A stretch of DNA of 64,000 bases from Paenibacillus sp. FSL R7-0204 (GTDB taxonomy: Bacteria; Bacillota; Bacilli; Paenibacillales; Paenibacillaceae): the NCBI RefSeq assembly GCF_038002225.1, contig NZ_JBBOCA010000001.1:1674001-1738000 (forward strand). The letters are read 5' to 3'. The notes beneath the pieces were generated by a model. That model saw only the letters and a list, made by a program, of their open reading frames with translations. It had not been told where the DNA came from and did no database searches. Made by a program: the position numbers and the translations under genes. Positions 1,588 through 17,023 of this stretch are shown here, in pieces; the first letter of the stretch is position 1; every line of letters starts with the position of its first letter.

Positions 1588-2565
1588 CTACACCGTAGAC
1601 CGCTCAATAATCCGGTAGTCCAGCTTGCGGTAGACCGGTTCGGGATGCTCCGAGTGAATCTGCTCATGGATAATGCGGAAGGCGGCGGCCCCCATCTCAT
1701 ACAGGTGGTTATCCATGGTGGTGATCTGAAGCAGCCGGCCGATCGGCTGGTTGTCGAAGCCCATAACTGCGAGGTCATGGGGGATGCTAAGGCCGGCTCT
1801 GCGCGCTTCAATAATCAGCCCGGCAGCTACATGGTCTCCCGTAATAATCATGGCTTCCGGCCGCTGTGGCATCTTCAGCAGGGACTGTGCAACGGCAGCG
1901 CCGTCTTCCTCCGTTGTACAGTCATAGATCATCCATTCCTCTTCAAAAGCCAGCTTATGCTCAGCAATGAATTCGCGGTAAGCAGCCTGACGGATCACGG
2001 CGCTGCTGCCGTTACTCCGTCCTTCGCAATATCCGATAGAGCGGTAACCTTTGCCGGTCAAGTACTCCAGACCTTCCTTGAAAGCCGCATAATGCTCAAT
2101 ATAGACAGAAGAAAAGCGCCGCGCCCCGCTGTCCTGGCAAGTGACAACCGGCCCGTAGGCCGTATACTCCTCGATGATGTCCGGCTTCAGCGCAGTAGAT
2201 ACAATCACGACACCGTCAATCTCTTTGTGGCGCAGCATCTCCAGCACTTTGATTTCTTCTTCCTCCAGATAATTGCTCTGGCAAAGAATCAGCCGGTATT
2301 GCGAGAGCAACGCCTCGTGGGCAAGGCCATTCATAATAATCGAGAAATAAAAAGCATGAATATACGGCAGAATCACCGCCACCGCACCGGTACGTCCGGT
2401 AATCAGATGAACGGCGTTCATATTGCGGGTATAGTCGAGCTGCTCAATCGTCTGCAGTACAGCGGCTCTTTTGTCCTTGCTGACATACGGATGATTATTC
2501 AGCACCCGTGAGACGGTCGTTACAGATACTCCGGCCATCCGGGCGATTTCTTTAATATTAGCCAC
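1588..2565 (-). CDS. LacI/PurR-family transcriptional regulator
   Basis: Complete 325-aa protein. An N-terminal LacI helix-turn-helix and hinge (IKEIARMAGVSVTTVSRVLN, residues 4-23) are followed by a periplasmic-binding-protein-like effector domain, including AVMGFDNQPIGRLL near the C-terminus. The start is GTG 2565, 11 bp after an AGGAGG. These proteins bind palindromic operators and usually sense a sugar or sugar phosphate. The gene stands alone between efeO and gerE with its own terminator, so its target is not evident here; it is not next to a sugar operon on its own strand. Confidence 0.88.
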   Translation of the reverse strand: MANIKEIARMAGVSVTTVSRVLNNHPYVSKDKRAAVLQTIEQLDYTRNMNAVHLITGRTGAVAVILPYIHAFYFSIIMNGLAHEALLSQYRLILCQSNYLEEEEIKVLEMLRHKEIDGVVIVSTALKPDIIEEYTAYGPVVTCQDSGARRFSSVYIEHYAAFKEGLEYLTGKGYRSIGYCEGRSNGSSAVIRQAAYREFIAEHKLAFEEEWMIYDCTTEEDGAAVAQSLLKMPQRPEAMIITGDHVAAGLIIEARRAGLSIPHDLAVMGFDNQPIGRLLQITTMDNHLYEMGAAAFRIIHEQIHSEHPEPVYRKLDYRIIERSTV

Positions 2566-2989: not shown

Positions 2990-3214
2990 TTGAAGGGCAA
3001 CGAACATCATAGCAAATTTTTGTTGACGCATCGTGAACGCGAAGTATTCGAGCTTCTTGTGCAGGACAAAACTACACGGGACATTGCCGGACTGTTATTC
3101 ATCAGCGAAAAGACCGTCCGCAACCACATTTCCAACGTAATGCAAAAATTAAACGTAAAAGGCCGTTCGCAAGCGGTTGTCGAGCTGATCAAGCTTGGGG
3201 AGCTGAAAATCTAG
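2990..3214 (+). CDS. gerE: GerE, sporulation transcription regulator
   Basis: From TTG 2990, preceded by AAGGAGGGG, the gene encodes 74 residues, the same length as Bacillus GerE. The whole protein is a LuxR/GerE helix-turn-helix, with the characteristic LLTHREREVFELLVQDKTT near the start and ISEKTVRNHISNVMQKLNVK in the recognition-helix region. In Bacillus, GerE acts in the mother cell late in sporulation on sigma-K-dependent spore coat genes. A longer frame from 2948 would add residues unlike the family and ignores the SD, so TTG is preferred. The gene is intact, but its 3' half is repeated three more times downstream in decreasing states of preservation. Confidence 0.95.
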   Translation: MKGNEHHSKFLLTHREREVFELLVQDKTTRDIAGLLFISEKTVRNHISNVMQKLNVKGRSQAVVELIKLGELKI

Positions 3215-3284
3215 CTGCCATGCTTCAGAGGTGATGCGTTTAAGCCTTCTCTTGCCCTTTGGGGCGAGGGAAGGTTTTTTGTTT
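3113..3284 (+). repeat. gerE 3'-end repeat, copy 1 (in the intact gene)
   Basis: Reference copy: last about 100 bp of gerE plus 70 bp of downstream sequence including the terminator. It recurs at 4365-4527, 5234-5407 and, strongly eroded, at 16062-16165, always in the same orientation. Confidence 0.9.
3246..3280 (+). terminator. gerE terminator
   Basis: CCTTCTCTTGCCC-TTT-GGGGCGAGGGAAGG hairpin, followed by six T residues, 31 bp after the gerE stop. The same terminator is carried along in each downstream copy of the gerE 3' end. Confidence 0.85.
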
Positions 3285-3377
3285 GGAGGAAAAGACCGAC
3301 AGGTGATGTCGATTTTCTATTCCTTCTTATTTATGCCTCTGTACATATCAAATGAAATAAGAAACGCTCAACTTGTT

Positions 3378-3448
3378 CACATTTAATCACATTTAATCAC
3401 GTTCGTTAACGAAAGTATATTCACAAATGGTAAATTACGTTATATAAT
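3378..3448 (+). promoter_or_regulatory. Promoter and candidate operators of the DeoR-type gene
   Basis: TTCACA (3420-3425), a 17-bp spacer and TATAAT (3443-3448) form a good sigma-A promoter. Upstream are a direct repeat of CACATTTAAT (two units from about 3379) and a perfect 12-bp palindrome, TTCGTTAACGAA (3402-3413). Either could be the autoregulatory operator of the adjacent regulator. Confidence 0.65.
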
Positions 3449-3515
3449 GTGAGTAACAGTGAATGTGGTGCGCAACTCCTTTACTGAATAATACTTATGA
3501 AAGGTAAGTGATTGT

Positions 3516-4304
3516 ATGTTTATGGAGGAACGACATCAAGAAATTCTAAAGATATTGGAAAAGGAAGGAAGAATTAAGGCAAGTGAAATTGAAACACTAT
3601 TTGATATCGGCTTTGATACGGCAAGACGTGATTTACGTATTCTTGAAGAAAAAGGACTTCTAAGACGAACACATGGTGGAGCGATTCCTGCCTTGCAAAT
3701 AGGTTATACTACACCACCCAAATATACACCACGAGACATAACGGAAATAAAAGATAATTATTTAGCTATCGCGAGAAAAGCAGTTAGTTACATCAAGGCT
3801 AATGATGTAGTTTTTCTAAATGCCGCTTCAGTAGGTTATTTTATGGCACAAAATTTGCCTAAAAACATCCCTTTTACGGCTGTAACTAATTCAATTGTTA
3901 TTGCAGGTGAACTTAGAAATTATGATAATATCAATACCATTATGGTCGGTGGCGAGATGAGTCAGAAAGGTCAGTGTAGTGATTACTATGCTATCGAATT
4001 TGTTAAAAACATTCGTTTTGATATCAGCTTCTTAACAAGCGCTGGTCTTTCTGCTGCTTTTGGGATGTCCATTCAAAAATCCAAAGGGGTCGGTTTTACA
4101 CAAGCAGTTGTTGAAAGTTCTAAATGTAATATAGCTTTATATCCGTCTGAGAAAATTGGAGTAGAATCCATATTGAAAATTTGTTCTGCAGATAAAATTG
4201 ATAAGCTAATCACTGATTGGGATGCTGTTGAAGAACAGTTGGTCGAAATTGAAGAGTTGGGTGTAGAAGTAATTGTTGTAGAACAAGGAACGATAGTTGA
4301 ATAA
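3516..4304 (+). CDS. DeoR/GlpR-family transcriptional regulator
   Basis: Complete 262-aa protein: DeoR-type winged helix-turn-helix (residues 5-57, ending in the signature LRRTHGGAI), then a ribose-5-phosphate-isomerase-like sensor domain that in this family binds a sugar phosphate. AAAGGTAAG precedes ATG 3516; an in-frame ATG at 3522 is also possible. The gene is far richer in A+T than its neighbours, with AT-ending codons dominating, which points to recent acquisition. It has no metabolic gene beside it, is preceded by its own promoter, and is bracketed by copies 1 and 2 of the gerE 3'-end repeat. Its target cannot be inferred. Confidence 0.88.
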   Translation: MFMEERHQEILKILEKEGRIKASEIETLFDIGFDTARRDLRILEEKGLLRRTHGGAIPALQIGYTTPPKYTPRDITEIKDNYLAIARKAVSYIKANDVVFLNAASVGYFMAQNLPKNIPFTAVTNSIVIAGELRNYDNINTIMVGGEMSQKGQCSDYYAIEFVKNIRFDISFLTSAGLSAAFGMSIQKSKGVGFTQAVVESSKCNIALYPSEKIGVESILKICSADKIDKLITDWDAVEEQLVEIEELGVEVIVVEQGTIVE

Positions 4305-4364
4305 CACATAATGATGAGCATCAACAATCAAGTTAACATATGCCTTTATTATTTGTGTGTTTCA

Positions 4365-4457
4365 AACCACATTTCCAACGTAATGCAAAAATTAAACATA
4401 AAAGGCCGTTCGCAAGCGGTTGTCGAGCTGATTAAGCTTGGGGAGCTGAAAATCTAG
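4365..4457 (+). pseudogene. gerE 3' fragment (copy 2), reading frame still open
   Basis: Encodes the last 30 residues of GerE, from NHISNVMQKLN to GELKI, in an intact frame with one substitution (Val to Ile at the residue after KLN) and the same TAG stop. It has no start codon or 5' half and so cannot make a working regulator. The open frame suggests a younger copy than the next one downstream. Confidence 0.85.
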
Positions 4458-4527
4458 CTGCCATGCTTCAGAGGTGATGCGTTTAAGCCTTCTCTTATCT
4501 TTTGGGATGAGGGGAGGTTTTTTGTTG
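4365..4527 (+). repeat. gerE 3'-end repeat, copy 2
   Basis: Aligns without gaps to 3122-3284, with only about eight differences in 163 bp. Most differences lie in the terminator hairpin and partly preserve its pairing (GCCC/GGGC changed towards ATCT/GGAT). Confidence 0.9.
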
Positions 4528-4621
4528 TTGGCGTGCCAACTCTCAATTCGATTTCAAACTATGATAAAATGAATTCATTAAAACCACTTTTTATCGATGG
4601 CTACCCGGGAGGTGTGAAAGA

Positions 4622-4870
4622 ATGAAATGGCAGCAAGTAAGAGAATTGTTTCCTGACCAATTTGTTTTGCTTTCCATTCTTGACTATCGTGAGGAAGATG
4701 ACAAGAAAATTATAACGGAAGTAGCTCCTGTTCGTGCAGTATCTGAGAAGAACGCCAACCAGGAATTTTTCAGCGCCGAACCTGGAAATCTTGTCTATCA
4801 CACTGCCAATGAGGAGTGCGTCATTCATCTGCGCAGAGACCCATTGATGAGAGTGAGGCGGCGATCATGA
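4622..4870 (+). CDS. Small protein of unknown function, first gene of an aspartyl-protease pair
   Basis: 82-aa frame from ATG 4622, with GGGAGGTG upstream. It begins MKWQQVRELFPDQFVLLS and has acidic and basic patches, no signal peptide, no membrane segment and no domain I recognise. Its stop overlaps the next gene's start (ATGA at 4867-4870), so the two are translationally coupled and probably work together. The pair is bracketed by copies 2 and 3 of the gerE 3'-end repeat. No function can be assigned. Confidence 0.7.
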   Translation: MKWQQVRELFPDQFVLLSILDYREEDDKKIITEVAPVRAVSEKNANQEFFSAEPGNLVYHTANEECVIHLRRDPLMRVRRRS

Positions 4871-5262
4871 AGATAGCTTATGATGGACAACTTCTGACAA
4901 CAGATATTTCCGTATGCTATCAAGGGAGAACGCTGCAAATTAAAGATATCATTATTGATACGGGTTCCTCGCATACTGTGTTCAGTCCTGATGTACTCGA
5001 AGAGATAGGTGTTACGTATGAAAACGGAGACCCCGTATACGAGGCTTATGGCGTTGGTGGAACCGTACCTTTTTACACCAAGGTTATGGATCAGATAGAA
5101 ATTGATGCCTTAAAAATTGAAAATGTGGAGATTGATGTAGGAATATTGCCCAAGTCGCATAAAGGCTTGCTCGGCTTGGATATCTTGAAGACATATGGAT
5201 TTACCGTGGATATGGAAAAGTTGGAACTCAGACGACCGTCCGCAACCACATCTCCAACGTAA
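4867..5262 (+). CDS. Retropepsin-like aspartyl protease domain protein
   Basis: 131-aa protein from ATG 4867, overlapping the previous stop by 4 bp. It carries the single catalytic motif of clan AA proteases, IIDTGSSHTVF (about residues 37-47), and a later hydrophobic-hydrophobic-Gly pattern, KGLLGLDILKTYGF, as in retropepsin-like bacterial proteins, which act as homodimers. No signal peptide or membrane segment is seen, so it is probably cytoplasmic. The last nine residues (RPSATTSPT) and the stop codon are read out of frame from the inserted gerE repeat (copy 3), so the original C-terminus was replaced at the junction. The core domain appears complete. Substrate unknown. Confidence 0.8.
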   Translation: MKIAYDGQLLTTDISVCYQGRTLQIKDIIIDTGSSHTVFSPDVLEEIGVTYENGDPVYEAYGVGGTVPFYTKVMDQIEIDALKIENVEIDVGILPKSHKGLLGLDILKTYGFTVDMEKLELRRPSATTSPT

Positions 5263-5322
5263 TGCAAAAATTAAACGTAAAAGGCCGTTCGCAAGCGGTT
5301 GCCCTGACTGATCAAGCTTAGG
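5234..5322 (+). pseudogene. gerE 3' fragment (copy 3), frame destroyed
   Basis: Corresponds to GerE from about TVRNHISNV onward. After GRSQAV the frame is broken by an indel (GTTGCCCTGACTGATC against GTTGTCGAGCTGATC in gerE) and ends early at an in-frame TAG. The first part also supplies the last codons and stop of the protease gene in another frame. Confidence 0.8.
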
Positions 5323-5407
5323 GGGCTGAAAATATAGCTGCCCTGCTTCAGCTTGCGCCACGTTTAAGCCTTCCTTTACCCTTCACGGGTGAGGGGAGGT
5401 TTTTTTG
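5234..5407 (+). repeat. gerE 3'-end repeat, copy 3
   Basis: Starts about 10 bp further 5' within gerE than copy 2. The first 67 or so bases are nearly identical to gerE; the rest has substitutions and indels, but the terminator hairpin (CTTTACCCTTCACGGGTGAGG followed by seven T) is preserved. Confidence 0.88.
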
Positions 5408-5483
5408 CTCTTACTAGTCCCGGCGATCCAACCTCCCGGAATATTAAGCACGGCTGCATTTTATGGATTGACGGCCGGGGGAA

Positions 5484-5658
5484 TTGGTTGTAAAATTAGT
5501 GTAAAGTATAAACCTTTAAACTTTTGAGGTGGTTTTGATACTTTTAATAAATGCAAAGCTGACGTCCAATGTTCGATTTTTCAGTCAGGCTGTAAGTTAT
5601 GGCGTGCTGAGTAAATCTTTTTTATTACTTTTAAAGTTAAATCGTTTAAACTTTTGAG
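5484..5658 (+). promoter_or_regulatory. Promoter and paired operators of the glycan operon
   Basis: TTGGTT (5484-5489), 17 bp, TATAAA (5507-5512) gives a plausible promoter. Immediately downstream is TTTAAACTTTTGAG (5515-5528), repeated exactly at 5645-5658 just before the regulator gene; each contains the TTTAAA(C) core, extended to the palindrome GTTTAAAC in the second. Two sites 130 bp apart suit looping by the LacI-type regulator encoded next. Confidence 0.65.
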
Positions 5659-5679
5659 TGTGGAGGCGTAGATACTTAG

Positions 5680-6669
5680 ATGAATATTCATGATGTAGCC
5701 AAGAAGTCGGGGCTCTCTGTAGTGACCGTATCCAGAGTCCTTAACAATTCACCCTCTGTACGTGAAGGCAACCGCCAGAAAGTGCTGAATGCGATAGAGG
5801 AATTGAATTATCAGCCCAATTCAGCGGCGCGGAGTCTGGTGCGCGGCAAGACCGGAGTCATTGGGATGTCGATTAACAACTTTAACGATTCTTTCTATGA
5901 CCGGGTGATTCGCGTAGTGAACCGGAAGCTGGCAGAGCAGGGGTACTTCCTGGCCCTGTCCATCGCCGAGAATGACGATGATGGGGTGAACTTCCTGTTC
6001 CAGAAGGACCGTGTGGACGGGATTATCCTGCTGTCTCCGCTGGAGGAGAAGGAATATGTGGAGGAGCTGAAGCGAAAGAACATCCCGGTTGTCCTGCTGG
6101 ATAACCAGTTCGAGCATGAGGATGTTCCGAGTGTTGTCGTCGATAACTATCAGGGCGGGTATGAAGCAACAAGACACCTGATTAGTCTTGGACACACCCT
6201 GATTGCCTATATCGGCGGCCCTTCGGAGTTCCTGAGTGTAACGGAGCGCAAACGGGGTTATGTCCAGGCGCTGGATGAAGCGGGACTAACGCCCTTTGGC
6301 ACGGAATATTGCGGCTTTACGGTAAGCAGCGGTTATGAGGTGGCGAAGAGATGGGTCCGCGAGGATAAGCTGCCGACAGCATTTTTTTCGGGAGACGACT
6401 TTATTGCCCTCGGGGTTGTTCAAGCCCTGCGTGAGGAGGGGATTCTGGTGCCTCAGGATATCTCCGTGGTCGGCTTTGATGATCAGCAGTTCGTCGGTGA
6501 ATTCTACCCGCGGCTCACAACGGTCAGACAGCCAGAGGCGCAGATGGGCAATATCGGCGTTGACTTACTGCTGAAGCTGATCAATGGGGAGGTGATGCCC
6601 CCTGCGGTAACGAAGCTTGCTCCTCAGCTTCTCATCCGTGAATCTACCGCTTCTGTTCGATTAACTTGA
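5680..6669 (+). CDS. LacI-family regulator of the glycan operon
   Basis: Complete 329-aa protein: LacI helix-turn-helix and hinge (IHDVAKKSGLSVVTVSRVLN, residues 3-22, then YQPNSAARSL) and a sugar-binding effector domain (VVGFDDQQFVGEFYPRLTTV near the C-terminus). The ATG at 5680 follows GTGGAGGCG. It is the first gene of a co-directional series with a kinase, GH4 enzyme, ABC importer and glycosidases, and its upstream region holds two copies of a putative operator, so it most likely controls itself and these genes. The inducer is probably a sugar or phosphosugar from the pathway. Confidence 0.9.
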   Translation: MNIHDVAKKSGLSVVTVSRVLNNSPSVREGNRQKVLNAIEELNYQPNSAARSLVRGKTGVIGMSINNFNDSFYDRVIRVVNRKLAEQGYFLALSIAENDDDGVNFLFQKDRVDGIILLSPLEEKEYVEELKRKNIPVVLLDNQFEHEDVPSVVVDNYQGGYEATRHLISLGHTLIAYIGGPSEFLSVTERKRGYVQALDEAGLTPFGTEYCGFTVSSGYEVAKRWVREDKLPTAFFSGDDFIALGVVQALREEGILVPQDISVVGFDDQQFVGEFYPRLTTVRQPEAQMGNIGVDLLLKLINGEVMPPAVTKLAPQLLIRESTASVRLT

Positions 6670-6689
6670 AATTTAGGAGTGAATGATCT

Positions 6690-7679
6690 GTGAAGTATTT
6701 TTTGGGAGTGGATGCAGGGGGCAGTAAGACCTACGCAATGATTGCAGATGAACAAGGGAAGCTTCTCGGTGCAGGCAAGGGCGGGAACGGGAATCATCAG
6801 CTGAACCGTGAGCAGGCGGAGAACAGCTTGCAGCAGGCTGTATCGGAAGCCATTACAGCATCCGGGCTGACCAGGGAGCAACTGGATTATTCCTGGTTCG
6901 GATTGGCGGGAGCGGACAGAGAGGCTGATTTTAGGATTTTACGGCCCATCATCGGCCGCCTCGGCCTTCCCCGGACGGAGATTTCCTGCGATACCTGGAA
7001 TGCCTTGCGTTCAGGGACAGAGAAGAATTACGGGATCGTGCTGATTTGCGGATCAGGCGTGAACTGCAGCGGCAAAAATCCGGCGGGTGCTGCCTATCAA
7101 TGCGGCGGCTTCGGCTACCGGTTCGGGGATTTCGGCGGCGGCTATGACTTAAGTATGGAGGTTTTCCGCAGCGTCCTCAGGGCGGATGACGGAAGAGAAC
7201 AGAAGACGGTCCTAAGCGAACGCTTAACTCAGTTGCTGGGCTATTCCAATGTCCCGGAGCTACGAGAGGATTACCTCGATCATTTCAGAGATCTGCCTCC
7301 CCAAATTGCGGAGCTGCTGTTTCAGGCGGCAGAGGAAGGGGACCCGGTGGCCACCGGGCTGCTGGTCAAGCAAGGGGATGAGCTGGGTCTGGCGGCTGCC
7401 TCGGCTATTCGCCGGTTGGCCATGGAGGCGGAGTCCTTCGACATCGTGCTTGCAGGCAGCCTGCTGACCAAGGGAGACCGTGCGGGCATTATCCGCCGGG
7501 CCATTGAGCGAAGAGTGAAGCAGGTGGCCCCGGACGGCACATTAAGGATTTTAACCCGGGAGCCGGTTGTAGGATCGGTCGTTCTGGCGATGGAAAGCAG
7601 CGGGTTGCATGTGAATCAGGAGGTTCTTGATCATCTATCACAGGGTAAGGAGGAGCAATTATCATGGGGGAAACATTGA
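6690..7679 (+). CDS. BadF/BadG-type ATPase, N-acetylglucosamine kinase-like sugar kinase
   Basis: 329-aa protein from GTG 6690 (SD AGGAGTGA). It has the ASKHA-fold phosphate motifs: FLGVDAGGSKTYAMI at the N-terminus, ICGSGVNCSG in the middle, and FGGGYDLSMEVFRSVLR after the adenosine region. This family includes eukaryotic and bacterial GlcNAc/glucosamine kinases. It lies 20 bp after the regulator and overlaps the GH4 gene by 16 bp. Since the operon imports its sugar through an ABC transporter, which does not phosphorylate, this kinase is the likely source of the 6-phosphate needed by the GH4 enzyme. Whether it acts on a monosaccharide or a disaccharide is not visible. Confidence 0.82.
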   Translation: MKYFLGVDAGGSKTYAMIADEQGKLLGAGKGGNGNHQLNREQAENSLQQAVSEAITASGLTREQLDYSWFGLAGADREADFRILRPIIGRLGLPRTEISCDTWNALRSGTEKNYGIVLICGSGVNCSGKNPAGAAYQCGGFGYRFGDFGGGYDLSMEVFRSVLRADDGREQKTVLSERLTQLLGYSNVPELREDYLDHFRDLPPQIAELLFQAAEEGDPVATGLLVKQGDELGLAAASAIRRLAMEAESFDIVLAGSLLTKGDRAGIIRRAIERRVKQVAPDGTLRILTREPVVGSVVLAMESSGLHVNQEVLDHLSQGKEEQLSWGKH

Positions 7680-8962
7680 AGCTGGTTGTTATCGGAGCGG
7701 GGTCATCGTATACGCCTGAATTAATTGAAGGGATCATCCTGCACCACCAGGAGCTTCCTGTCCGCGAAATATGGCTGGTGGATATTGAAGAAGGAAGAGA
7801 GAAGCTACATACGATTACGGAACTGAGCAAGCGGATGATTGCCGAGTCCAGACTGCCGATTACCATTGCAGCGACGCTTGACCGCCGGGAGGCCATTGCC
7901 GGAGCGGACTTCGTCTGCACGCAGATCCGGGTAGGGATGCTTGAAGCACGCAAGTGGGACGAATTGATTCCGCTTGAGTACGGTGTCATCGGTCAGGAGA
8001 CTACAGGCCCTGGAGGAATGATGAAGGGCCTGCGGACCATCCCGGTTATTCTGGATATTTGCAAGGATATCGAGGAGCTGGCCCCGGATGCCTGGCTGCT
8101 GAATTTTACGAATCCGGCCGGGATGGTGACTGAAGCTGTTCACAAATATTCATCGGTTAGAAGCGTGGGCCTGTGCAACTCGCCGATCGGATTTCAGAAG
8201 TGGCTCTCCGAATTCTTCGGGCTTCCCGTGGAGAAGATCTATGCGGAGTTTGTCGGCATCAACCATCTGCACTGGGTATCCGATGTCGTGATTGACGGGA
8301 AGAGCAAGCTGCAGGAGCTTATTGATTACCCTGAGAGCTATAAGGCAAGCAATGTGCCGTTTGATTCCTGGGACCACCGGTTTCTGAACGGTCTGAAGGC
8401 TATCCCTTCCTATTATCTGAGCTATTACTATATGACGGACGCGATGCTGGCGGAACAGAAGGAAGCAGCGGCAACGGCCGGATCACGCGCTGAAGTTGTG
8501 AAGAAGGTGGAGGAGGAGCTATTCGAGCTGTACCGGAACGTGGAGCTGAAGGAGAAGCCGAAGCAGCTGGAACAGCGTGGCGGAGCCTATTACTCGGAGG
8601 CGGCAGTGCTGCTGATGCGCTCTATCCATAATGATTCCCGCGATATCCAGACGCTGAATGTAAGGAATAACGGGATTATTGATTTCCTGCCGGACGATGC
8701 CTCGATTGAGGTGAACTGTATGGTCACCAAGCAGGGGCCACTGCCGATTCCGCTGCGCAAGGTGCCCCAGTCTGTCAGAGGCCTGCTGGCTGCGGTCAAG
8801 CAATATGAGAGTCTTACGATCGAGGCGGCTGTGCACGGAGACCGGGATGTGGCCCTGCAGGCGATGGTTCATCATCCGCTCATGCCTTCGGTCACCGTAG
8901 CGGAACAGCTGCTGGATGAAATGCTGGAGAAGAACAAACCGTTTTTGCCGTTATTTCAATAG
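7664..8962 (+). CDS. GH4 family 6-phospho-beta-glucosidase-like glycosidase
   Basis: 432-aa protein with an N-terminal NAD-binding Rossmann motif (KLVVIGAGSSYTPELIEGII) and the GH4 metal-site residues: Cys and Asn in LCNSPIGF and His in GINHLHW. The pattern resembles 6-phospho-beta-glucosidases (LicH/CelF type), which use NAD+ and Mn2+ and an oxidation-elimination mechanism. It acts in the cytoplasm on phosphorylated disaccharides. SD AAGGAGGAG lies inside the kinase gene, whose end it overlaps. GH4 6-phosphoglucosidases usually follow a PTS; none is present here, so the upstream kinase probably makes the substrate. Confidence 0.88.
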   Translation: MGETLKLVVIGAGSSYTPELIEGIILHHQELPVREIWLVDIEEGREKLHTITELSKRMIAESRLPITIAATLDRREAIAGADFVCTQIRVGMLEARKWDELIPLEYGVIGQETTGPGGMMKGLRTIPVILDICKDIEELAPDAWLLNFTNPAGMVTEAVHKYSSVRSVGLCNSPIGFQKWLSEFFGLPVEKIYAEFVGINHLHWVSDVVIDGKSKLQELIDYPESYKASNVPFDSWDHRFLNGLKAIPSYYLSYYYMTDAMLAEQKEAAATAGSRAEVVKKVEEELFELYRNVELKEKPKQLEQRGGAYYSEAAVLLMRSIHNDSRDIQTLNVRNNGIIDFLPDDASIEVNCMVTKQGPLPIPLRKVPQSVRGLLAAVKQYESLTIEAAVHGDRDVALQAMVHHPLMPSVTVAEQLLDEMLEKNKPFLPLFQ

Positions 8963-8986
8963 AATCGTCCAGAGGAGGTCAAGCGG

Positions 8987-9913
8987 ATGAATACGGCCGG
9001 GAAACCGAGCAGGTGGAAGAAATTTAACAGTCAATTGGATTTGCAGTCTATGGTTTGGCCGGGAATTATCTTTGTATTCATTTTCAGTTACATTCCGATG
9101 TATGGCGTGGTTATGGCGTTCCAGCAATACGATATTTTCGGCGGCATGATGAATAGCCCCTGGGTGGGATGGATGCAATTCAGAATGTTCTTCGAAGCGC
9201 CGGAGTTCTGGAATGTGATGCGTAACACCCTTGTAATTAGCCTGTTAAAATTGATTATCTCTTTTCCTGCCCCGATACTGCTTGCGCTGATGCTGAATGA
9301 AGTCGGGCATATGGGCTTCAAGCGCGTGATCCAGACCGTCAGCTACTTACCTTATTTCCTGTCCTGGGTTATTGTATCCGGTTTCGTATTTTCGCTGTTA
9401 TCCGTTGATAACGGAACGGTGAACTATCTGCTGGAGCGGTTCAATCTGGTCCAGGAGCCGGTTAACTTCCTTGCGGTACCCAAATACTTCTGGTCTATTC
9501 TGGTAAGTGTAAATGTGTGGAAGGAAGTCGGATTCGGAAGTATTGTCTATCTGGCGGCGATTGCCGGCATTGATCCGACCCTGTATGAGGCTGCATCCAT
9601 AGACGGAGCAAGCCGGTTTAAGCAAATTCACCTGATTACACTCCCCAGCATTACCCCCATTATCGTCATCTTTATGATTCTTGCCATCGGCGGTCTGCTC
9701 AGTGCGGGCTTCGAGGATATTCTGCTGCTTGCAACCAATCCAATCCTCAGGCCCTACTCCGATGTTATCGATACCTATGTGTACCGCGTCGGGATATTAA
9801 ATGCCAGATTCTCTTATGCGACAGCGGTAGGGCTGTTCAAAGCGGTAATCAGTGTCATTCTGCTGGTAACGGCTAACAAAATCGCCCGCCGGGCAGATGT
9901 AAGTCTCTGGTAG
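8987..9913 (+). CDS. ABC sugar transporter permease (LplB/MalF type)
   Basis: 308-aa membrane protein with about six hydrophobic segments and the inner-membrane permease signature EAASIDGASRFKQIHLITLPSI, split here as EAASIDGASRFKQ then IHLITLPSI (about residues 203-224). It is of the LplB subgroup common in Paenibacillus for oligosaccharide uptake. SD AGAGGAGG precedes ATG 8987, 24 bp after the GH4 gene. It pairs with the next permease and the solute-binding lipoprotein. No ATPase is encoded in the operon; such systems commonly share an MsmX-type ATPase encoded elsewhere. Confidence 0.9.
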   Translation: MNTAGKPSRWKKFNSQLDLQSMVWPGIIFVFIFSYIPMYGVVMAFQQYDIFGGMMNSPWVGWMQFRMFFEAPEFWNVMRNTLVISLLKLIISFPAPILLALMLNEVGHMGFKRVIQTVSYLPYFLSWVIVSGFVFSLLSVDNGTVNYLLERFNLVQEPVNFLAVPKYFWSILVSVNVWKEVGFGSIVYLAAIAGIDPTLYEAASIDGASRFKQIHLITLPSITPIIVIFMILAIGGLLSAGFEDILLLATNPILRPYSDVIDTYVYRVGILNARFSYATAVGLFKAVISVILLVTANKIARRADVSLW

Positions 9914-9956
9914 ATACCACAACAATGCTCCATAAACCTTTTAGGAGGGCCGAACA

Positions 9957-10847
9957 ATGAGACTAAGCCTGGGCGACAAAATGATGCAGCGGAGTATTTA
10001 TATCCTTTTGGCATTGCTGGCGCTACTCATGCTGTACCCGTTTTGGAACGCGCTCGTCATTTCCTTTAATCTGGGGAGCGATACGGCGCTCGGCGGTGTA
10101 ACCTTGTGGCCGAGAGCCTTTACCCTGGAAAATTATTATATTGTGTTTCAGGATGACCGCCTGCTGAATTCGTTTCTGATCACCATTCTCAGAACGCTCT
10201 GCGGCACAGCATTATCCGTATTCTTTACGGCCTTGCTAGCTTACGGCATGTCCAAGAAGACCTTACTTTTCCGCAAGCAATACATGGTGTTTTTCATGAT
10301 TACGATGTTCTTCAGCGGAGGGCTTATCCCCAGTTATTTACTCATCCGTTCTTTGGGGATGCTGGATACCTTTTGGGTGCTGATTATCCCCGGCATCATC
10401 AGCGTCTGGAACATGATTGTCATCCGCACCTTCTTCAATGCTCTGCCTGAGGGACTGGAGGAATCCGCCAAAATCGACGGCTGCAGCAACTACGGCATTT
10501 TCTTCCGGATCGTGATTCCCGTCTCCGGCCCGGTGCTGGCTACGATAGCCTTATTCACCGCAGTCGGTTACTGGAATGACTGGTTTACGGGAGCGATCTA
10601 CATTACCGAGGATCGCCTGCTGCCTATACAGACGCTGCTGCGGCAGGTAATGAACTCCAACATCATGACCCAGATTGGCTCCTCGAATGCGATCGCGCTG
10701 GATCATATGAACCGGAATCGGACGATTACCACGAAGTCACTGACTATGGCTACGATGATGATCGCTACTATTCCGATTATCCTGACCTACCCTTTTCTCC
10801 AGAAGTACTTTGTGAAGGGCGTGATGGTCGGTTCATTGAAAGAATAG
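9957..10847 (+). CDS. ABC sugar transporter permease (YtcP/MalG type)
   Basis: 296-aa membrane protein, the second permease of the importer, with the conserved EAA loop GLEESAKIDGCSNYGIFFRI and about six membrane spans. SD TTAGGAGGG precedes ATG 9957. Its size and order (LplB-like, then YtcP-like, then binding protein) match the usual CUT1-subclass arrangement in Paenibacillus. Confidence 0.9.
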   Translation: MRLSLGDKMMQRSIYILLALLALLMLYPFWNALVISFNLGSDTALGGVTLWPRAFTLENYYIVFQDDRLLNSFLITILRTLCGTALSVFFTALLAYGMSKKTLLFRKQYMVFFMITMFFSGGLIPSYLLIRSLGMLDTFWVLIIPGIISVWNMIVIRTFFNALPEGLEESAKIDGCSNYGIFFRIVIPVSGPVLATIALFTAVGYWNDWFTGAIYITEDRLLPIQTLLRQVMNSNIMTQIGSSNAIALDHMNRNRTITTKSLTMATMMIATIPIILTYPFLQKYFVKGVMVGSLKE

Positions 10848-10881
10848 CAGTCCCCATCTTACGTAGAAAGAAGGAAAAAGA

Positions 10882-12516
10882 ATGCGCAAACGCCTAACAT
10901 GGATAGCTCTGTTGCTGACTTCGCTGGTGCTGCTGCTCGCTGCCTGTAGCGGAGGGGGGAATTCTGACACTTCACAGAACAATCTGAATACCGAGGCCGC
11001 TACAGATGACGGCAGCGGGATCAAGCCTGTCACCTTCAGCTTCTATGGCAACTACGACTGGCTCACGACATCACCATGGGGGGAGAATGAGGCGACGAAG
11101 TGGATTCAGGAGAACCGCAAGGTTACGGTTGAACCGATCCAATCCGGAGGAGCGGCCGGAGAAAAGCTGAATACGATGATCGTCGGCGGTGATTTGCCGG
11201 ATGTCATTTTTACGGACCGGGGGTCCTCGGTAGAACGGCTAGTGCAGGCAGGGCAGCTCGTTGCGCTGGATGATTACTATGAGAAATATCCGAACTTCAA
11301 GAAATATGTGAAGGAATCGACCCAGAATCTGCTCCGTTCAGAGGACGGGAAAATCTATCAAATCCCGAACTGGTATACCTCCGGGCAATTCGGCAACGGC
11401 GGATGGATGGTGAATAAGGATATCTATAACGCACTCGGCCGGCCAGCGCTGGAGACCTTTGATGACTTGTATCAATATTTGGTCCTTGTGCAAGACAAGT
11501 ATCCGGATGTAGTCCCTCTGGAGGTTGGGGAGAAGGGGGCAGGTCTGGAAATTATGTATGGCGGCTTCAGGGAGAACGCTACCAGCAAGTTCGTTACACT
11601 CATGGGTTATCCGGATGGCGACAAGCTGACCTCTATCCTGGACGATCCCGCTTACGAGGAGATGGTGCTGTATATCAATAAGCTGTACCGTGAGCGCCTG
11701 ATTACGCAGGATGCGCTGCAGCAAACCCAGGATGCGGTCAAGGAAAAGGTCAATACCGGCCGGGTAGCAGTCATGGTGGAATCCAATATCACTACGTATG
11801 GGGCCGAGGGACACCGGGCATTGACGGCAAGCCATCCGGACAGCGGTTATGAAATTATCTGGCCGGTACACAAAGCCGGTATAGACAAGACCAAAGTGTT
11901 TGTAAGCGGCTTTGAGACGCTGGGCTGGAACGTCAGTGTCATTACCAAACAAGCCAAGGACCCGGAGGCTATCTTCGCTTATTTTGACTGGATTACGGGT
12001 CCGGAGGGACAGAAGGTGCTGTTCTTCGGCCCTAAGGGCTTGTACTGGGATGAAGAGGATGCTGACGGAGCACCGATCCCGAATGAGAAATACAAGACAA
12101 CGCCTGCTAACGAGCGTACGGATACGATGCGGAAATTCGAGGATTTCAATTGGGCGGGAAATACAACCTTCATTGATACGGCCAAAATGAGCCTCGAGGC
12201 GCTGCTCTCCGCGAATCAGAAGTCATGGGAGACTGTGGCGCAGTCCACCGTGACCTGGAAAACTGCGCTGGACATTACACAATTCGTAAATACTGATCCT
12301 CTACCGGATACGGAGACCGGCATCATTGCACAGAATGTCGCGGATATCTATACCCTTGCTTATGCCCAGATGGTTCAGGCGAAGTCGGACGAAGAGGTGC
12401 TGGCAGCACTGGATACCGCCAGAAAGAACACCGCCAAAGCCGGGCTGGATAAGCTGCTGGAGTTCAGAACTGAAAAATGGCAGGAAAATGTTAAGAAAAT
12501 CAACGCTACGAAATAA
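10882..12516 (+). CDS. Extracellular solute-binding lipoprotein of the glycan importer
   Basis: 544-aa protein with a lipoprotein signal (LLAACSGGGN, Cys about residue 22) and the large family-1 solute-binding fold of the LipO/YtcQ group. It includes the typical PEAIFAYFDWITGPEGQKV stretch near residue 370, usual in binding proteins paired with LplB/YtcP permeases. It should capture the oligosaccharide outside the membrane. SD AGAAGGAAAAAG lies upstream of ATG 10882. It follows the two permeases and precedes two glycosidase genes. Confidence 0.9.
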   Translation: MRKRLTWIALLLTSLVLLLAACSGGGNSDTSQNNLNTEAATDDGSGIKPVTFSFYGNYDWLTTSPWGENEATKWIQENRKVTVEPIQSGGAAGEKLNTMIVGGDLPDVIFTDRGSSVERLVQAGQLVALDDYYEKYPNFKKYVKESTQNLLRSEDGKIYQIPNWYTSGQFGNGGWMVNKDIYNALGRPALETFDDLYQYLVLVQDKYPDVVPLEVGEKGAGLEIMYGGFRENATSKFVTLMGYPDGDKLTSILDDPAYEEMVLYINKLYRERLITQDALQQTQDAVKEKVNTGRVAVMVESNITTYGAEGHRALTASHPDSGYEIIWPVHKAGIDKTKVFVSGFETLGWNVSVITKQAKDPEAIFAYFDWITGPEGQKVLFFGPKGLYWDEEDADGAPIPNEKYKTTPANERTDTMRKFEDFNWAGNTTFIDTAKMSLEALLSANQKSWETVAQSTVTWKTALDITQFVNTDPLPDTETGIIAQNVADIYTLAYAQMVQAKSDEEVLAALDTARKNTAKAGLDKLLEFRTEKWQENVKKINATK

Positions 12517-12558
12517 CTCTTGTTAGAAGTTAAATAAGAATAAAGCGGAGGCGAGATT

Positions 12559-14298
12559 ATGACATTTGCACTGAGATCGAGGTTCATGGCAGTACTAGGT
12601 ATCGTGTTGGTTTCTTCGGTAGCGGGGGGTTCCCTTCCTCTGCCGGTCCAGGCCGAGGAGCAGAGTAACCCCCCTTTTGAAACGGAAGTGATTGTACGGA
12701 CGGTGAATCAGTTCAAGAACCTGGCGGATGTCCAGAATTTCATCAGTCTGTCCACCAGCTACGGGGTCGATGTCATCAGTATGAACGTGAAGCAGGATGA
12801 AGATGATGAGGTTCCGTCCGGCAGTGTATTTTATCAGAGTGATATCGCCCCCATTGCCCAGGGCTACCAGAATTTCGATGCCCTGCAGGCGGTCATTACG
12901 GCAGCCCATGCTGCAGGAATCAAGGTTCATGCCTGGATTCCCCAGTTCCATGACCAGCAGGCCTTCCTCGCGCATGATGAATGGCAGATGCAGGCGCTGG
13001 TTGACGGGGTTCAGACTCCGTTTACAGGGGCTAACGGTAACGAATATTTCGTCAATCCGATTCACCATGAAGTGCAGCAATATGAGCGTTCGATTATTCA
13101 GGAAGTGATCGAGAATTATGATGTTGACGGTGTTGTGCTGGACTGGATACGCTTCGACAATTACAACATGGACGTCAGTGACTACACGGTCGCGAAGTAT
13201 CAGGCGCAGTTCGGATATTCCCCGCTAAGCATTGACTTCGATACAGATTCGCCGCAGCGTCAGCAGTGGAATGAATGGAGAACCGAGCAAATTGGACAGT
13301 ATGTTGGCGATATCCGTGAGGATATTTCCGAATCTTCGAATCCGGATGTGCAGCTCGGTGTGTATATTTTGCCGCCGGAATTTACCGAGGTTGGACAGAA
13401 TGTAGCCAAGTTCAAGGATGAGATCGACTTCATCGCACCGATGGCGTATTTCGATGACTGGGAGTTCAACAGTGATTGGGTATACAGCACTTCCTACGGC
13501 ATCCTGAAGGATACGAGCGACCGGATTAGCGGCAGTAATGCGGACATCGTAGCCACCCTGGATAATGACTGGACCGATGATCAATATCAGGAGGTCTACA
13601 AAGGTATCCGCGAGAATTATCCGGACGTGAAGCGCCTGTCGTTCTTCGCCTATGGAGCCTGGCCGGAAGATGAGCTGGCGAATATCCATGAACGTGAGAC
13701 CTGGCCGGCGCCAGGCTGGACGCCTCCGGTCGAGCAGGACTATCCGGCCCAGCTTCCTGCGGTATGGAAAGCGCGGAATATTGGTTCCATGCCGGGGAAC
13801 GCCACCTACAATGCTTCCAACAAGCAATTTACACTCAGCAGCAGCTCTACGGATATTTGGGGCAATGGGGATCAGTTGAATTATATCTATCAGCCCGTGA
13901 GCGGCAATGCGGAGATTGTGGTTAAGGTGCAGTCCACCAGCTGGCTGGACGGCTGGGCCAAGGCCGGCATTATGATCCGGGAGTCCCTGAGCCATAATTC
14001 CAAGCACGCGGATATGATGCTTACCCCCTCGAATGGGGCCACCTTCCAGTATCGTTCAGAAACGGCGGGAACTATGGCCGATCATACGGCAACTGCCTCA
14101 GCTCCGAAATGGCTGAAGCTGACTAGAACCGGCAATACGTTCAAAGGGTCGATTTCGGCAAATGGGAGCAGCTGGCAGACGGTCGGAACCATTCAGATCC
14201 CGATGAAAAGCAAGGTGTATATCGGGATTGCCCTTAGCAATCCCGGGAATGACTCGCGGAACAAGGCTGTGTTTGGAAATGTGAAGGTTACGGATTAA
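12559..14298 (+). CDS. Secreted glycosidase-like protein (GHL10-type barrel plus beta-sandwich domain)
   Basis: 579-aa protein with a signal peptide (hydrophobic residues about 8-27, then PVQAEEQ). Residues about 35-400 look like a TIM-barrel glycosyl-hydrolase-like domain of the YngK/GHL10 kind (AAHAAGIKVHAWIPQFHD; YDVDGVVLDWIRFDNYN, whose Asp and Arg would sit at barrel strand ends). Residues about 415-579 form a laminin-G/DUF1349-like beta-sandwich (AGIMIRESLSHNSKHADMML), probably for carbohydrate binding. It is the only clearly exported enzyme of the operon and would trim polymer outside the cell before import. The exact activity is not predictable. Confidence 0.75.
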   Translation: MTFALRSRFMAVLGIVLVSSVAGGSLPLPVQAEEQSNPPFETEVIVRTVNQFKNLADVQNFISLSTSYGVDVISMNVKQDEDDEVPSGSVFYQSDIAPIAQGYQNFDALQAVITAAHAAGIKVHAWIPQFHDQQAFLAHDEWQMQALVDGVQTPFTGANGNEYFVNPIHHEVQQYERSIIQEVIENYDVDGVVLDWIRFDNYNMDVSDYTVAKYQAQFGYSPLSIDFDTDSPQRQQWNEWRTEQIGQYVGDIREDISESSNPDVQLGVYILPPEFTEVGQNVAKFKDEIDFIAPMAYFDDWEFNSDWVYSTSYGILKDTSDRISGSNADIVATLDNDWTDDQYQEVYKGIRENYPDVKRLSFFAYGAWPEDELANIHERETWPAPGWTPPVEQDYPAQLPAVWKARNIGSMPGNATYNASNKQFTLSSSSTDIWGNGDQLNYIYQPVSGNAEIVVKVQSTSWLDGWAKAGIMIRESLSHNSKHADMMLTPSNGATFQYRSETAGTMADHTATASAPKWLKLTRTGNTFKGSISANGSSWQTVGTIQIPMKSKVYIGIALSNPGNDSRNKAVFGNVKVTD

Positions 14299-14310
14299 GG
14301 AGGTATGCAT

Positions 14311-16032
14311 ATGAACATGCCGCTAAAAGAACGGCAGTATTACTTTCGGGACTATTACGATCAGGGTGAAGAGTTGGTGGTGGAAGGGCAGCAGTTGAGA
14401 ATCGAGCTGACTTCAAAGTTCTCCATGATCCAGAAGTGGGAGTGGCCGCTTGCCGCCGAAGGCCCGATTGTGATCCTTGAGCCGTGTGGAGAAAATGAGG
14501 AAGCACCTGATCCTGGCAATATCAAGCTGGAGCTGGAATACGAGGGATTGCTTAAGGCGGATGGCTATCTGCTGGATATCCGTAAGGACGGCACAGTTAC
14601 CATAGCTGCCTCCAATAAGAGGGGACTACGGTATGGAATGGATGCTCTGCACCGGCTGCTGAGCGTAGGTGAAGGCAAGTGCCGGTTGCCTGTGGCGACC
14701 ATTCACGATGAGCCTTCTTTTCCGGTCCGCGGCATTATTGAAGGCTTCTATGGCACGCCGTGGAGCTGGGAGGACCGGAAGGATGCGGTGCGCTATCTGG
14801 CAGCTCACCGGATGAATACCTTCATGCACGCTCCCAAGGATGATCCCTATCACCGCGAGCTATGGCGTGAGCCTTATCCTGAGAATCTGTTCGAGCAGAT
14901 TCGTGAGCTGAAGCAGGAATGTGATACGCAGCTGGTGGACTTCTATTATTGCATTAGTCCGGGGAAGGATCTGCAGTTTCGTAGTAGGGATGATTTTGCC
15001 AGTCTGGAGGCGAAGCTGAGCGCGATGATCGCTATTGGTGTCCGGCATTTCGCCCTGCTGATGGATGACATCGACTACGCCTTGTCCGGGGAGAACCTTC
15101 ATTACCTGGAGCGCTCCGGACTGGCGCATGCTTATGTGGCCAACCGTGTCTACGACTATTTAAGCCGTCAATTGCAGAAGGTTACGCTGGTGATGTGCCC
15201 CTCTGAGTACTGGTCCTTCTGGGATACCGAATATAAGCGGGATATCCGCGAGAAGCTGCATCCAGACATCAAGATCTTCTGGACCGGCTCTGCCGTCTTT
15301 GCCCGGCAGGTCGGCAGCAGGAATGCAGGAGATAACTACAGCTATTACGGACATGAGCTGTGGCTGTGGGACAACATCCCCGTCAATGATGCCGACTACG
15401 ACCGGCTGTTTCTGGACCCGGTTCGCGGCCGTTATTCGCGGCTGGGGCAGACCGGACATCAGGCCGTGGTAGCGAACCCGATGGTTCAGTGGGAATGCTC
15501 CAAGATTACACTGAACACCCTGGCCCACTATATGTGGAACAGTGAGCGTTATATGCCGGAGCTCTCCTGGGAGCTGTCGGTCCGGGAATTCGCCGGAGAG
15601 CTGGCTGAGGATATGATGTTCTTCTGCCGCCAGAATCTGAACAGCCAGCTCTATAGCGGCGGATATGAGGAATTGAAAGAGGCTGCGCACAGTAAGGATA
15701 TCTGCGGGCTAGACGCGTATTTCGACCGCCTGGAGAGCGTCTCCTGCCGGTTACTTGAAATGGAGAATTCCAAGTTCCAGACGGAAGCAGGACCCTGGCT
15801 GCAAAGAGCCCTGGCGGATGTAGCACTGTGGAGAGCCTTGCGGCGGAAGATTGCCGGGACGACGGAACCCGGAGCCGATGAAGAACTGAGTAAGCGGGCC
15901 GAAGCCGCTCAGGCCTTCAAGGTCCGGCTGGGGAGTGATCCGGCCTGGATGGCAGCCGAGGCCTGGGGACTTGCCTCCAGGGAGGGCAAGAACGGATACC
16001 GGCTGATTTTGGCGGATAAGGTGGTAATTTAA
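14311..16032 (+). CDS. GH84-family beta-N-acetylhexosaminidase (O-GlcNAcase/NagJ-like)
   Basis: 573 aa from ATG 14311, which is 7 bp after AGGAGG; ATG 14305 abuts the SD and is less likely. Residues about 25-120 are the GH20b/84-associated alpha/beta domain. The catalytic barrel starts with VRGIIEGFYGTPWSWEDR, a GH84 hallmark, and carries the paired catalytic aspartates in ALLMDDIDYAL, used in substrate-assisted cleavage of the 2-acetamido group. There is no signal peptide, so it acts in the cytoplasm on imported GlcNAc-containing glycosides. It is the last gene of the operon and links the pathway to GlcNAc chemistry, agreeing with the GlcNAc-kinase-like protein upstream. Confidence 0.9.
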   Translation: MNMPLKERQYYFRDYYDQGEELVVEGQQLRIELTSKFSMIQKWEWPLAAEGPIVILEPCGENEEAPDPGNIKLELEYEGLLKADGYLLDIRKDGTVTIAASNKRGLRYGMDALHRLLSVGEGKCRLPVATIHDEPSFPVRGIIEGFYGTPWSWEDRKDAVRYLAAHRMNTFMHAPKDDPYHRELWREPYPENLFEQIRELKQECDTQLVDFYYCISPGKDLQFRSRDDFASLEAKLSAMIAIGVRHFALLMDDIDYALSGENLHYLERSGLAHAYVANRVYDYLSRQLQKVTLVMCPSEYWSFWDTEYKRDIREKLHPDIKIFWTGSAVFARQVGSRNAGDNYSYYGHELWLWDNIPVNDADYDRLFLDPVRGRYSRLGQTGHQAVVANPMVQWECSKITLNTLAHYMWNSERYMPELSWELSVREFAGELAEDMMFFCRQNLNSQLYSGGYEELKEAAHSKDICGLDAYFDRLESVSCRLLEMENSKFQTEAGPWLQRALADVALWRALRRKIAGTTEPGADEELSKRAEAAQAFKVRLGSDPAWMAAEAWGLASREGKNGYRLILADKVVI

Positions 16033-16061
16033 GCGCTTATTGATCCTGATTAATGGATAGT

Positions 16062-16165
16062 ACCGTACAAAAATCAAACGTAATGCTGGAAATATTGCCG
16101 CCATACTCTAATGACAATACGTGTAAGCCTTCCATTCCCCTTCGGGGTAAGGGGAGGTTTTTTGT
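16062..16165 (+). repeat. gerE 3'-end repeat, copy 4 (eroded), with terminator
   Basis: TACAAAAATCAAACGTAA aligns with TGCAAAAATTAAACGTAA of gerE (16 of 18). After an internal deletion of about 53 bp, GCTGGAAATATTGCCGCCAT and the following bases to GTAAGCCTTCC align with the gerE end at roughly two thirds identity. The hairpin CCTTCCATTCCCC-TTC-GGGGTAAGGGGAGG with six T residues closes the copy and would terminate the glycan operon. Confidence 0.7.
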
Positions 16166-16261
16166 TTATGTGCGAAAACAACGGAAGAGTGAGCTAGATC
16201 ACCGTCTGAATTTTATCAAATGATAAATTATAGCTATTAAGGTAATCCGGGAGGAAATGTA

Positions 16262-17023
16262 ATGAGCAGATATGAACAACAACGAAATTTTCTGAAATCC
16301 AATTTTCATGAATTCAAGCAGATTAAAACAGACAAGATTAAGGGCATTGCACAACCGCCGATTGTGAAGTCATTTCATGCGGAATCACTAATTATTGATC
16401 TGCCAAAGGTTAGTAGAGATGCAGTGAGTAAAGAGAGTATATTTGACTGTATAGAGCAGAGAAGAAGTACACGCTTCTATTCTGCGGACACTTTGAGTCT
16501 GGAGGAGCTGTCTTATTTATTGTGGGCCACCCAGGGGATTACGGGAATGAACAAGAACGGGCTTACGCTGCGGACTGTGCCCTGCAGTGGCGCGACACAC
16601 ACCTTTGAGACCTACCTTATGATTATGCGGGTAGAAGGCATCCGGCAGGGGATTTACAGATACCTTCCTGTGGAGCATAAGCTCTTGTTTATGTTTGAAT
16701 TGGACGGGCTGGAGCAGAAGATTGATGCCATTACGCTGGATCAGCCGTTTGTCCCTAACTTTGCACGCAAGGCTTCTGTGCTGTTCGTCTGGAGTACCAC
16801 ACCGTACCGTTCTGAATGGAAGTATGATATTTCAGCCCACAAAAAAATCCTCATCGATGTTGGACATGTCTGCCAGAACCTGTACTTAGCCAGTGAATCG
16901 ATCGGAGCAGGCGCCTGCGCTATCGGGATCTATGACCAGAAGCTGATTGATGGGATTTTGGCGCTGGACGGGGATGAAGAATTTGTGATCTATCTTGGCG
17001 CAGTGGGGAAGAAGCGGGAATAG
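16262..17023 (+). CDS. SagB/ThcOx-type FMN-dependent oxidoreductase (nitroreductase fold)
   Basis: 253-aa protein with the nitroreductase-fold landmarks of the SagB/ThcOx group: IFDCIEQRRSTRFYSADTLS (flavin-binding arginines), LSYLLWATQGITG, LRTVPCSGATHTFETYLMI, and IDVGHVCQNLYLASESIGAGAC towards the C-terminus. Relatives include azoline oxidases of RiPP pathways, but many act alone and are uncharacterised. No YcaO cyclase or transporter lies nearby, so RiPP involvement is not supported. SD GGGAGGAAATG precedes ATG 16262. A short gene of 38 codons follows. Confidence 0.85.
   Translation: MSRYEQQRNFLKSNFHEFKQIKTDKIKGIAQPPIVKSFHAESLIIDLPKVSRDAVSKESIFDCIEQRRSTRFYSADTLSLEELSYLLWATQGITGMNKNGLTLRTVPCSGATHTFETYLMIMRVEGIRQGIYRYLPVEHKLLFMFELDGLEQKIDAITLDQPFVPNFARKASVLFVWSTTPYRSEWKYDISAHKKILIDVGHVCQNLYLASESIGAGACAIGIYDQKLIDGILALDGDEEFVIYLGAVGKKRE

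Follow-up and report, generated by a model that had tools for sequence, protein, structure and literature searches.

Repeated insertion into gerE and a probable array of integrase-less cassettes behind it in Paenibacillus

Why does the 3′ end of one gene recur, in ever poorer copies, along the DNA behind it? This question is raised by gerE in a window of 64,000 nucleotides (nt) from Paenibacillus sp. FSL R7-0204 (contig NZ_JBBOCA010000001.1, positions 1,674,001 to 1,738,000), to which all coordinates below refer unless a locus is named. Intact gerE (2990..3214, + strand; 225 nt, 74 amino acids (aa), TTG start, with a longer TTG start at 2948 also in the list of open reading frames (ORFs)) stands at the head of the array, and its intrinsic terminator hairpin (3236..3280, +) recurs in every copy. 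As a sequence-only reading of this DNA had reported, the gerE 3′ end and terminator recur three times downstream in the same direction, and decay rises with distance from the gene: copy 2 (4365..4527, +) is 95% identical, copy 3 (5234..5405, +) is 86% identical with indels, and copy 4 (16085..16167, +) is 75% identical and consists of gerE tail and terminator. We consider it likely that the region is an array of integrase-less cassettes which arose by repeated site-specific insertion into gerE, carried out by large serine recombinases (LSRs) that act at the same spot as gin and its recombinase GirC.

The copies could be merely similar terminators or a dispersed repeat, and copy 4 does hold little beyond tail and hairpin, as do 19 of the 69 extra matches in the fetched loci of relatives (same strand, beginning past query position 262). 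However, a search of the 7.7-Mb genome with the gerE 3′ part gave matches at the four gerE places only (E values of 2e-95, 6e-69, 2e-49 and 2e-8), which excludes the dispersed repeat that had been named as a possible alternative. Chance or a repeat is refuted for copies 2 and 3, in which ∼93 and ∼103 nt, respectively, of the gerE coding part survive. We also took gerE with its surroundings from 55 relatives (54 congeners, plus G048 from another family) and compared 60 loci (genomes carry G numbers and loci L numbers); relatives were picked partly for extra gerE copies, so shares among the fetched loci are biased. In G084, G113 and G115, the scars behind the glycan operon that precedes copy 4 in the window begin at query positions 222–231, inside gerE coding sequence, and copy 4 is therefore more than a look-alike terminator. 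In folding comparisons, the four hairpins were better than 200, 200, 200 and 195 of 200 shuffles. A shared terminator or repeat is a very improbable explanation of the copies.

ORFs and Pfam matches confirmed the modules that the sequence-only reading had placed between the copies. Cassette 1 (3122..4364, +), the newest, comprises a gerE 3′ half, a DeoR-type regulator (3516-4304; PF00455/PF08220) and an attP-like right end. Cassette 2 (4365..5243, +) comprises a gerE 3′ half, an 82-aa protein (4622-4870) with no Pfam match, and an aspartyl protease (4867-5262; PF13650) whose stop codon is read inside copy 3. The cargo of cassette 3 (5680..16032, +) is a glycan operon of eight genes by ORF list and Pfam, encoding a LacI regulator, a BadF/BadG-type ATPase/kinase, a GH4 protein, two permeases, a binding protein, a GHL10 protein and a NAGidase.

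If these modules entered one after another, relatives should preserve the earlier states, and they do. The DNA that follows copy 2 adjoins the end of intact gerE in G087 (98.8% identical), G088 and G114; the flank after copy 3 lies directly behind gerE in G113 (86.7%) and 24 nt behind it in G115; and the flank after copy 4 lies 6–9 nt past the matched gerE end in G001, G015, G118, G007 and G083. The flank after the window's own gerE is found behind the gerE 3′ half of G101 (96.5%). Removal of 3122-4364 in silico gave a joint-spanning alignment of 2384 bp to G087, which has no cassette 1 (94.6%, 3 gap positions), and of 2098 bp to G114 (96.1%). When both cassettes 1 and 2 were removed (3122-5243), the alignment ran through the joint for 2479 bp to G115 (91.0%, 14 gap positions) and for 2130 bp to G113 (92.2%), while removal of 3202-16084 gave alignments of 1.2–1.8 kb to G015, G001, G063 and G064 (79.7–84.5%; four of four tried). 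Because the DNA behind each copy lies within 24 nt of the end of intact gerE in relatives, and because these alignments run through the joints, each of copies 2 to 4 is, judged by alignment, a former gerE 3′ end: copy 2 is a scar of attR type and copy 4 the oldest scar. The alignments show three nested insertions at gerE, the newest nearest the gene; in the order they imply, the glycan operon is oldest, followed by the protease pair and then the DeoR gene.

In G113 the order is gerE, glycan operon, scar and 82-aa/protease pair, the reverse of the window. Judged by this reversal, the modules seem to have arrived in independent events, each landing beside gerE. Cargo between copies differs among relatives, as had been anticipated; another example is a 129–132/89-aa gene pair, which in G025, G084, G119, G092, G095 and G117 stands behind gerE or a 3′ copy and ahead of whichever copy or gene comes next. 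The nested empty sites and swapped module orders bear out the earlier proposal that DNA was repeatedly inserted at gerE, pushing old junctions outward while gerE was kept.

The sequence-only reading had placed the insertion at the gerE 3′ end, and here it was mistaken, as the crossover is mid-gene. The crossover core, AACCACATTTCCAA (attB; 3122..3135, +; nt 133-146 of the 225-nt gene), is where the split gerE of relatives ends. Left edges of the copies fall exactly at the core start in 18 of 48 cases and at query positions 187–199 in 26 of 48; in loci with intact gerE alone, the figures are 12 and 19 of 34. With the core as the commonest left edge, a site at the gerE 3′ end was rejected. Exchange most likely takes place at the AA of 3134-3135, because the two junctions of G101 have little in common beyond AA. 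AA is constant in 42 junctions, but it also lies within a conserved Asn codon, which makes this constancy weak evidence.

Directly ahead of copy 2 is the P arm GTGTTTCA, then AACC (4357..4364, +), which is half of the palindrome of the LSR attP. Reverse-complemented, the arms at split gerE genes match it, as does the attP of phage Xenia; inversion of the arm at split gerE (e.g., ATGTGGTTTGAAATAC) gives the arm that precedes many copies (GTRYTTCA, then AACC). At the exact predicted place, the P-arm 8-mer was present in 20 of 37 copies, made up of 9 of 10 in split loci, where the score is not independent of a motif derived from split genes, and 11 of 27 in intact loci. It was found at none of 49 intact gerE genes and at 0.15% of random places. 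A right end of ∼45 bp before the P arm (4316-4364 in the window; also L078, L072 and L070) is common to cassettes with different cargo; the window and G094 are 95.6% identical there, the others 78–86%.

These edges bear on whether any site-specific enzyme was involved. RecA-dependent or illegitimate recombination of gerE-homologous incoming DNA at gerE 3′ repeats would do without one, and several junctions look like its products. The P arm is missing from copy 3, whose left edge lies outside the core, 10 nt deeper into gerE; G108 carries the same seven genes twice, with scars and a protease pair between (L071, oriented ∼2000-8400 and 10600-17000), and the 200 bp preceding each scar are identical, as from unequal crossing-over; and G101 is without scar 2 and has a 5-bp repeat, ATGAT, at the joint, as read from alignment ends and the window sequence. 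However, homology-driven events would hardly account for left edges that pile up at one nucleotide (18/48) or for an attP arm in 20 of 37 copies compared with 0.15% of random places, and we judge this route improbable for the array. Copy 3 itself may stem from illegitimate joining to gerE or from repair at a later time, and its origin is possibly other than LSR insertion; homology of the protease cassette to G108 ends ∼15 nt before the core.

Which enzyme could have made the array? The sequence-only reading had stated that no integrase is present, and this held: Pfam identified no recombinase among the 11 array proteins, and an LSR model had no match among called ORFs of at least 60 aa in the first 22 kb of the window. 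The genome as a whole has no member of the gerE-targeting LSR family, only two weak matches (38.7 bits in a frame of 284 aa and 26.2 bits in one of 157 aa); its two Pfam PF07508 matches are likewise weak. It had also been supposed that some relatives would carry integrase genes at gerE, and in seven of seven split-gerE loci, gerE is broken at the core and an LSR of 525–535 aa lies inside the insert. These seven LSRs are 46–93% identical to the first of them, and both of those scanned carry PF00239, PF07508 and PF13408. Across 84,980 species genomes, a search turned up 51 LSR loci, at least four of which belong to fetched genomes (G117, G011, G021 and G079). A gerE half lies in the flank (up to 9 kb) in 45 of the 51, and within 110 bp of the LSR in 31; six loci have none (L118, L141, L142, L148, and the distant L154 and L155). 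In a control on 1.21 Mb of gerE loci, these gerE peptides gave 144 matches, never outside a gerE match. The pairing of LSR and gerE half occurs in Paenibacillus, Cohnella, Bacillus, Mesobacillus and others. In L108, L110, L126 and L153, the LSR elements in split gerE are ∼2.6–3.3 kb long, scarcely more than the recombinase gene. Two gerE 3′ halves stand behind the LSR in L119 (Bacillus sp. FJAT-26390; at 27 and 1655 bp) and in L138 (P. terrae; at 25 and 1893 bp), and arrays may therefore extend beyond the window's genus. A tyrosine recombinase as driver of the array was unsupported; a model built from the L054 tyrosine recombinase recovered that protein alone.

How common are extra copies? The gerE query matched all of 100 same-genus genomes, with at least two matches in 49 (pieces of split genes counted). 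In a family draw of 197 genomes, 176 matched gerE; outside the genus, 12 of 154 matching genomes had two matches and the others one. Among the 56 genomes compared, including the window's own, gerE is split in 7 and intact in 49, and 25 of these 49 have at least one same-strand copy that holds gerE coding sequence.

The sequence-only reading had each insert restoring gerE. Intact gerE was indeed kept in the window, but LSR elements in place split the gene (7/7). Because standard LSR insertion splits gerE, an extra step is needed to restore it. In the mechanism we propose, a cassette would run from core through gerE 3′ half with terminator and cargo to P arm. An LSR element (the vehicle) would first sit in gerE ahead of older scars, and would then excise from attL to a more distal attR, carrying the adjacent cassette with it. 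The vehicle-cassette composite would enter another gerE, from which the vehicle would exit alone via attL × proximal attR. This exit would restore gerE with the cassette-borne 3′ half and leave cargo plus an attR scar bearing the host's old 3′ half. Such a route, the simplest that we can construct, would need attP × attB and attL × attR reactions only. Each scar's terminator would serve the cargo upstream of the scar, which may explain why the hairpin outlasts the coding part.

G101 holds a 61-kb LSR element directly ahead of the window's cassette 1 (96.5–97.3%). Removal of vehicle plus one cassette from G095 gave a 2656-bp alignment to G084 (95.7%), and from G094 a 4169-bp alignment to G082 (93.2%); relative to these sisters, G095 and G094 have each gained a vehicle and one cassette at the core, as the composite model predicts. 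Two 3′ copies stand behind the vehicle in G062, and one clear copy with a weak terminator-only match in G117. Alternatively, without any cassette mobility, successive whole LSR elements could have decayed to cargo plus scar, and a donor that carried gerE could have supplied the repair each time, through gene conversion or transformation; donor-derived gene conversion is the chief competitor to the proposed restoration of gerE. Such serial burial would fit the LSR remnants at four loci with intact gerE (G079, G048, G012 and G121), the presence in G079 of the same cargo as in split G062 with the LSR frame shortened, and the shared ∼45-bp right end, as if all were element ends. However, opposite module orders in near relatives are easier to explain with moving cassettes, and the sister pairs G095/G084 and G094/G082 differ by a vehicle plus one cassette. 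Burial of successive elements is therefore, in our estimate, unlikely, though the most credible of the alternatives considered here. G048 (L091, oriented 1867-1910 and 3288-3377) presents a mirror case, in which the 5′ side of gerE occurs in two copies behind the intact gene, one or both of them abutting a P′-like arm (attL-like); a broken LSR and a gerE 3′ copy come next.

A number of observations weigh against the cassette reading. Extra gerE matches of at least 45 bits are missing from 16 of the 56 fetched genomes. Of 37 core-bearing copies, 17 failed the exact P-arm test; 16 of these belong to the 27 copies from loci with intact gerE (14 of 27 if a 6-nt shift is allowed), and five of the failing copies (G013, G033, G071, G072 and G090) are one scar by descent, with flanks 90–99% alike. 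Of the three window copies, only copy 2 has the P arm and the full attR structure (P arm, core, gerE 3′ half); copy 3 has ∼10 nt of gerE in its place, and the core of copy 4 is lost. The sequence-only reading would have counted modules free of gerE copies in related genomes against repeated insertion, and in part such modules exist: the protease pair of G087 stands without a detectable scar beside the nitroreductase gene, and no scar is detectable at the glycan operon of G022, which lies behind a LacI gene, or at the 129–132/89-aa pair of G119. A contiguous sister was found in two of four vehicle-removal tests; G117 has no close sister, and the G062 alignment to G079 reaches only ∼100 bp past the joint. 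The model predicts a gerE with a foreign 3′ half, and a distance comparison spoke neither for nor against it: the correlation between the two halves was 0.69 for coding sequence and 0.81 when the terminator was included, compared with 0.67 inside the 5′ half. Vehicle and cassette could have arrived as two successive events, and we infer the excision and transfer steps from sequence comparison.

Contrary to the sequence-only reading, which knew of no description of gerE as an integration site, two such systems are published. According to the passages on the site in Abe et al. (2017), gin of Bacillus cereus inserts at gerE nt 138-146 with core CATCTCAAA, splits gerE, and is excised in sporulation, when the gene is rejoined by GirC/GirX; girA and girB form an operon with girC apart, and cleavage is likewise predicted at AA (PMC5595907). 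The same place in gerE corresponds to window 3127-3135 (core CATTTCCAA), and the core common to copy 2 and the relatives' split gerE is at this gin site. Further likenesses are an inverted-repeat element site, the AA cleavage prediction, and the gin-like layout of the G094, G095 and G117 elements, with two adjacent serine recombinases and a third (by Pfam in G094, by protein kinship in G095 and G117). In G094 (L077) the first two recombinase frames overlap, beside a large helicase-nuclease (PADLOC PDC-S37), and the second recombinase is 81–82% identical in G095 (L075) and G117 (L079). Kinship with GirC is suggested by the shared site and recombinase layout. In contrast to gin, the window has an intact gerE and a recombinase-free stack of small cassettes with gerE 3′ scars, and this array is not a gin.

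A second comparison is offered by Xenia, a phage of P. larvae. Its LSR is 51% identical to that of G101, and behind the LSR lies the palindrome GTATTTCAAACCACATCTCCAATATAACATGTTTTGAAACAC, whose CATCTCCAA begins at record base 38,417. For Xeni_IDv2, the published account of its insertion describes integration into gerE, opened at base 38,418, with a nine-base duplication (PMC12453123); the two would coincide if, as we infer, Xenia and Xeni_IDv2 share coordinates. Xenia and its kin resemble the array in their related LSR, the P arm in attP and gerE as target of Xeni_IDv2, but they are phages, not cassettes, and gerE is disrupted.

The array also resembles two families of accretive elements. Integrons gather small cargo units, newest nearest the head and in shuffled order, with the tyrosine integrase IntI encoded at the head and attC sites that fold as single strands. 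The window array does likewise, but with an LSR family instead, and no tyrosine integrase was identified by Pfam among its 11 proteins (the IntI search covered the array only). Composite islands of the staphylococcal cassette chromosome (SCC) are made by LSRs, stand in tandem behind one conserved gene, are in some cases recombinase-free, and target the rlmH 3′ end by means of Ccr recombinases. Here, by contrast, the target is the middle of gerE and the array has no recombinase; a mid-gerE target obliges every cassette to bring along 79 nt of gerE code plus the terminator. A comparison of gin with SCC composites appears in the discussion of PMC5595907. In the open-licence literature (titles and abstract openings), nested scars or a cassette array at gerE were not found described, and while gerE is a published target of gin and phage, the cassette array behind it is apparently new.

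The array is bordered on the left by a LacI-type regulator (1588..2565, − strand; PF00356/PF13377), the same left neighbour as in many relatives, and on the right of the oldest insertion by a nitroreductase-family gene (16262..17023, +; PF00881), behind which several relatives have a gerE-like terminator. Vehicles carry further genes: AbiC-like and Mrr-like genes lie behind the LSR in G094, and the element splitting gerE in G011 has a defence-type reverse transcriptase (L054:3834-5177; best match RT_UG17). A second insertion site lies at the gerE start (window equivalent 2986-2997): in G105 (L097 and L098), accattgaaggg occurs twice, and the two occurrences flank phage-like genes at a distance of ∼52 kb from each other. 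One end of this stretch has a tyrosine integrase next to it (L097:1709-2878, phrog_1), and gerE upstream pieces are separated in much the same manner in G121 and G032.

A broader proposal, which we put forward tentatively and with rather less than even confidence, is that gerE heads a new cassette platform in Paenibacillus. Its 3′ half would act at once as recombination half-site, start of a cassette and terminator of the preceding cassette, and gin-like or phage LSR elements would ferry integrase-less cassettes from one species to another, to be unloaded when the vehicle leaves gerE, perhaps in sporulation. This unloading step becomes testable with plasmids. The array connects gene splitting of the prophage type with the build-up of cassettes, and it draws attention to an LSR family that keeps closely to a single host gene in several genera and whose attP arms can be read off scars. 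The gerE site offers a readable insertion history across the genus, with a sugar-use operon among the cargo, inside a gene required for sporulation.

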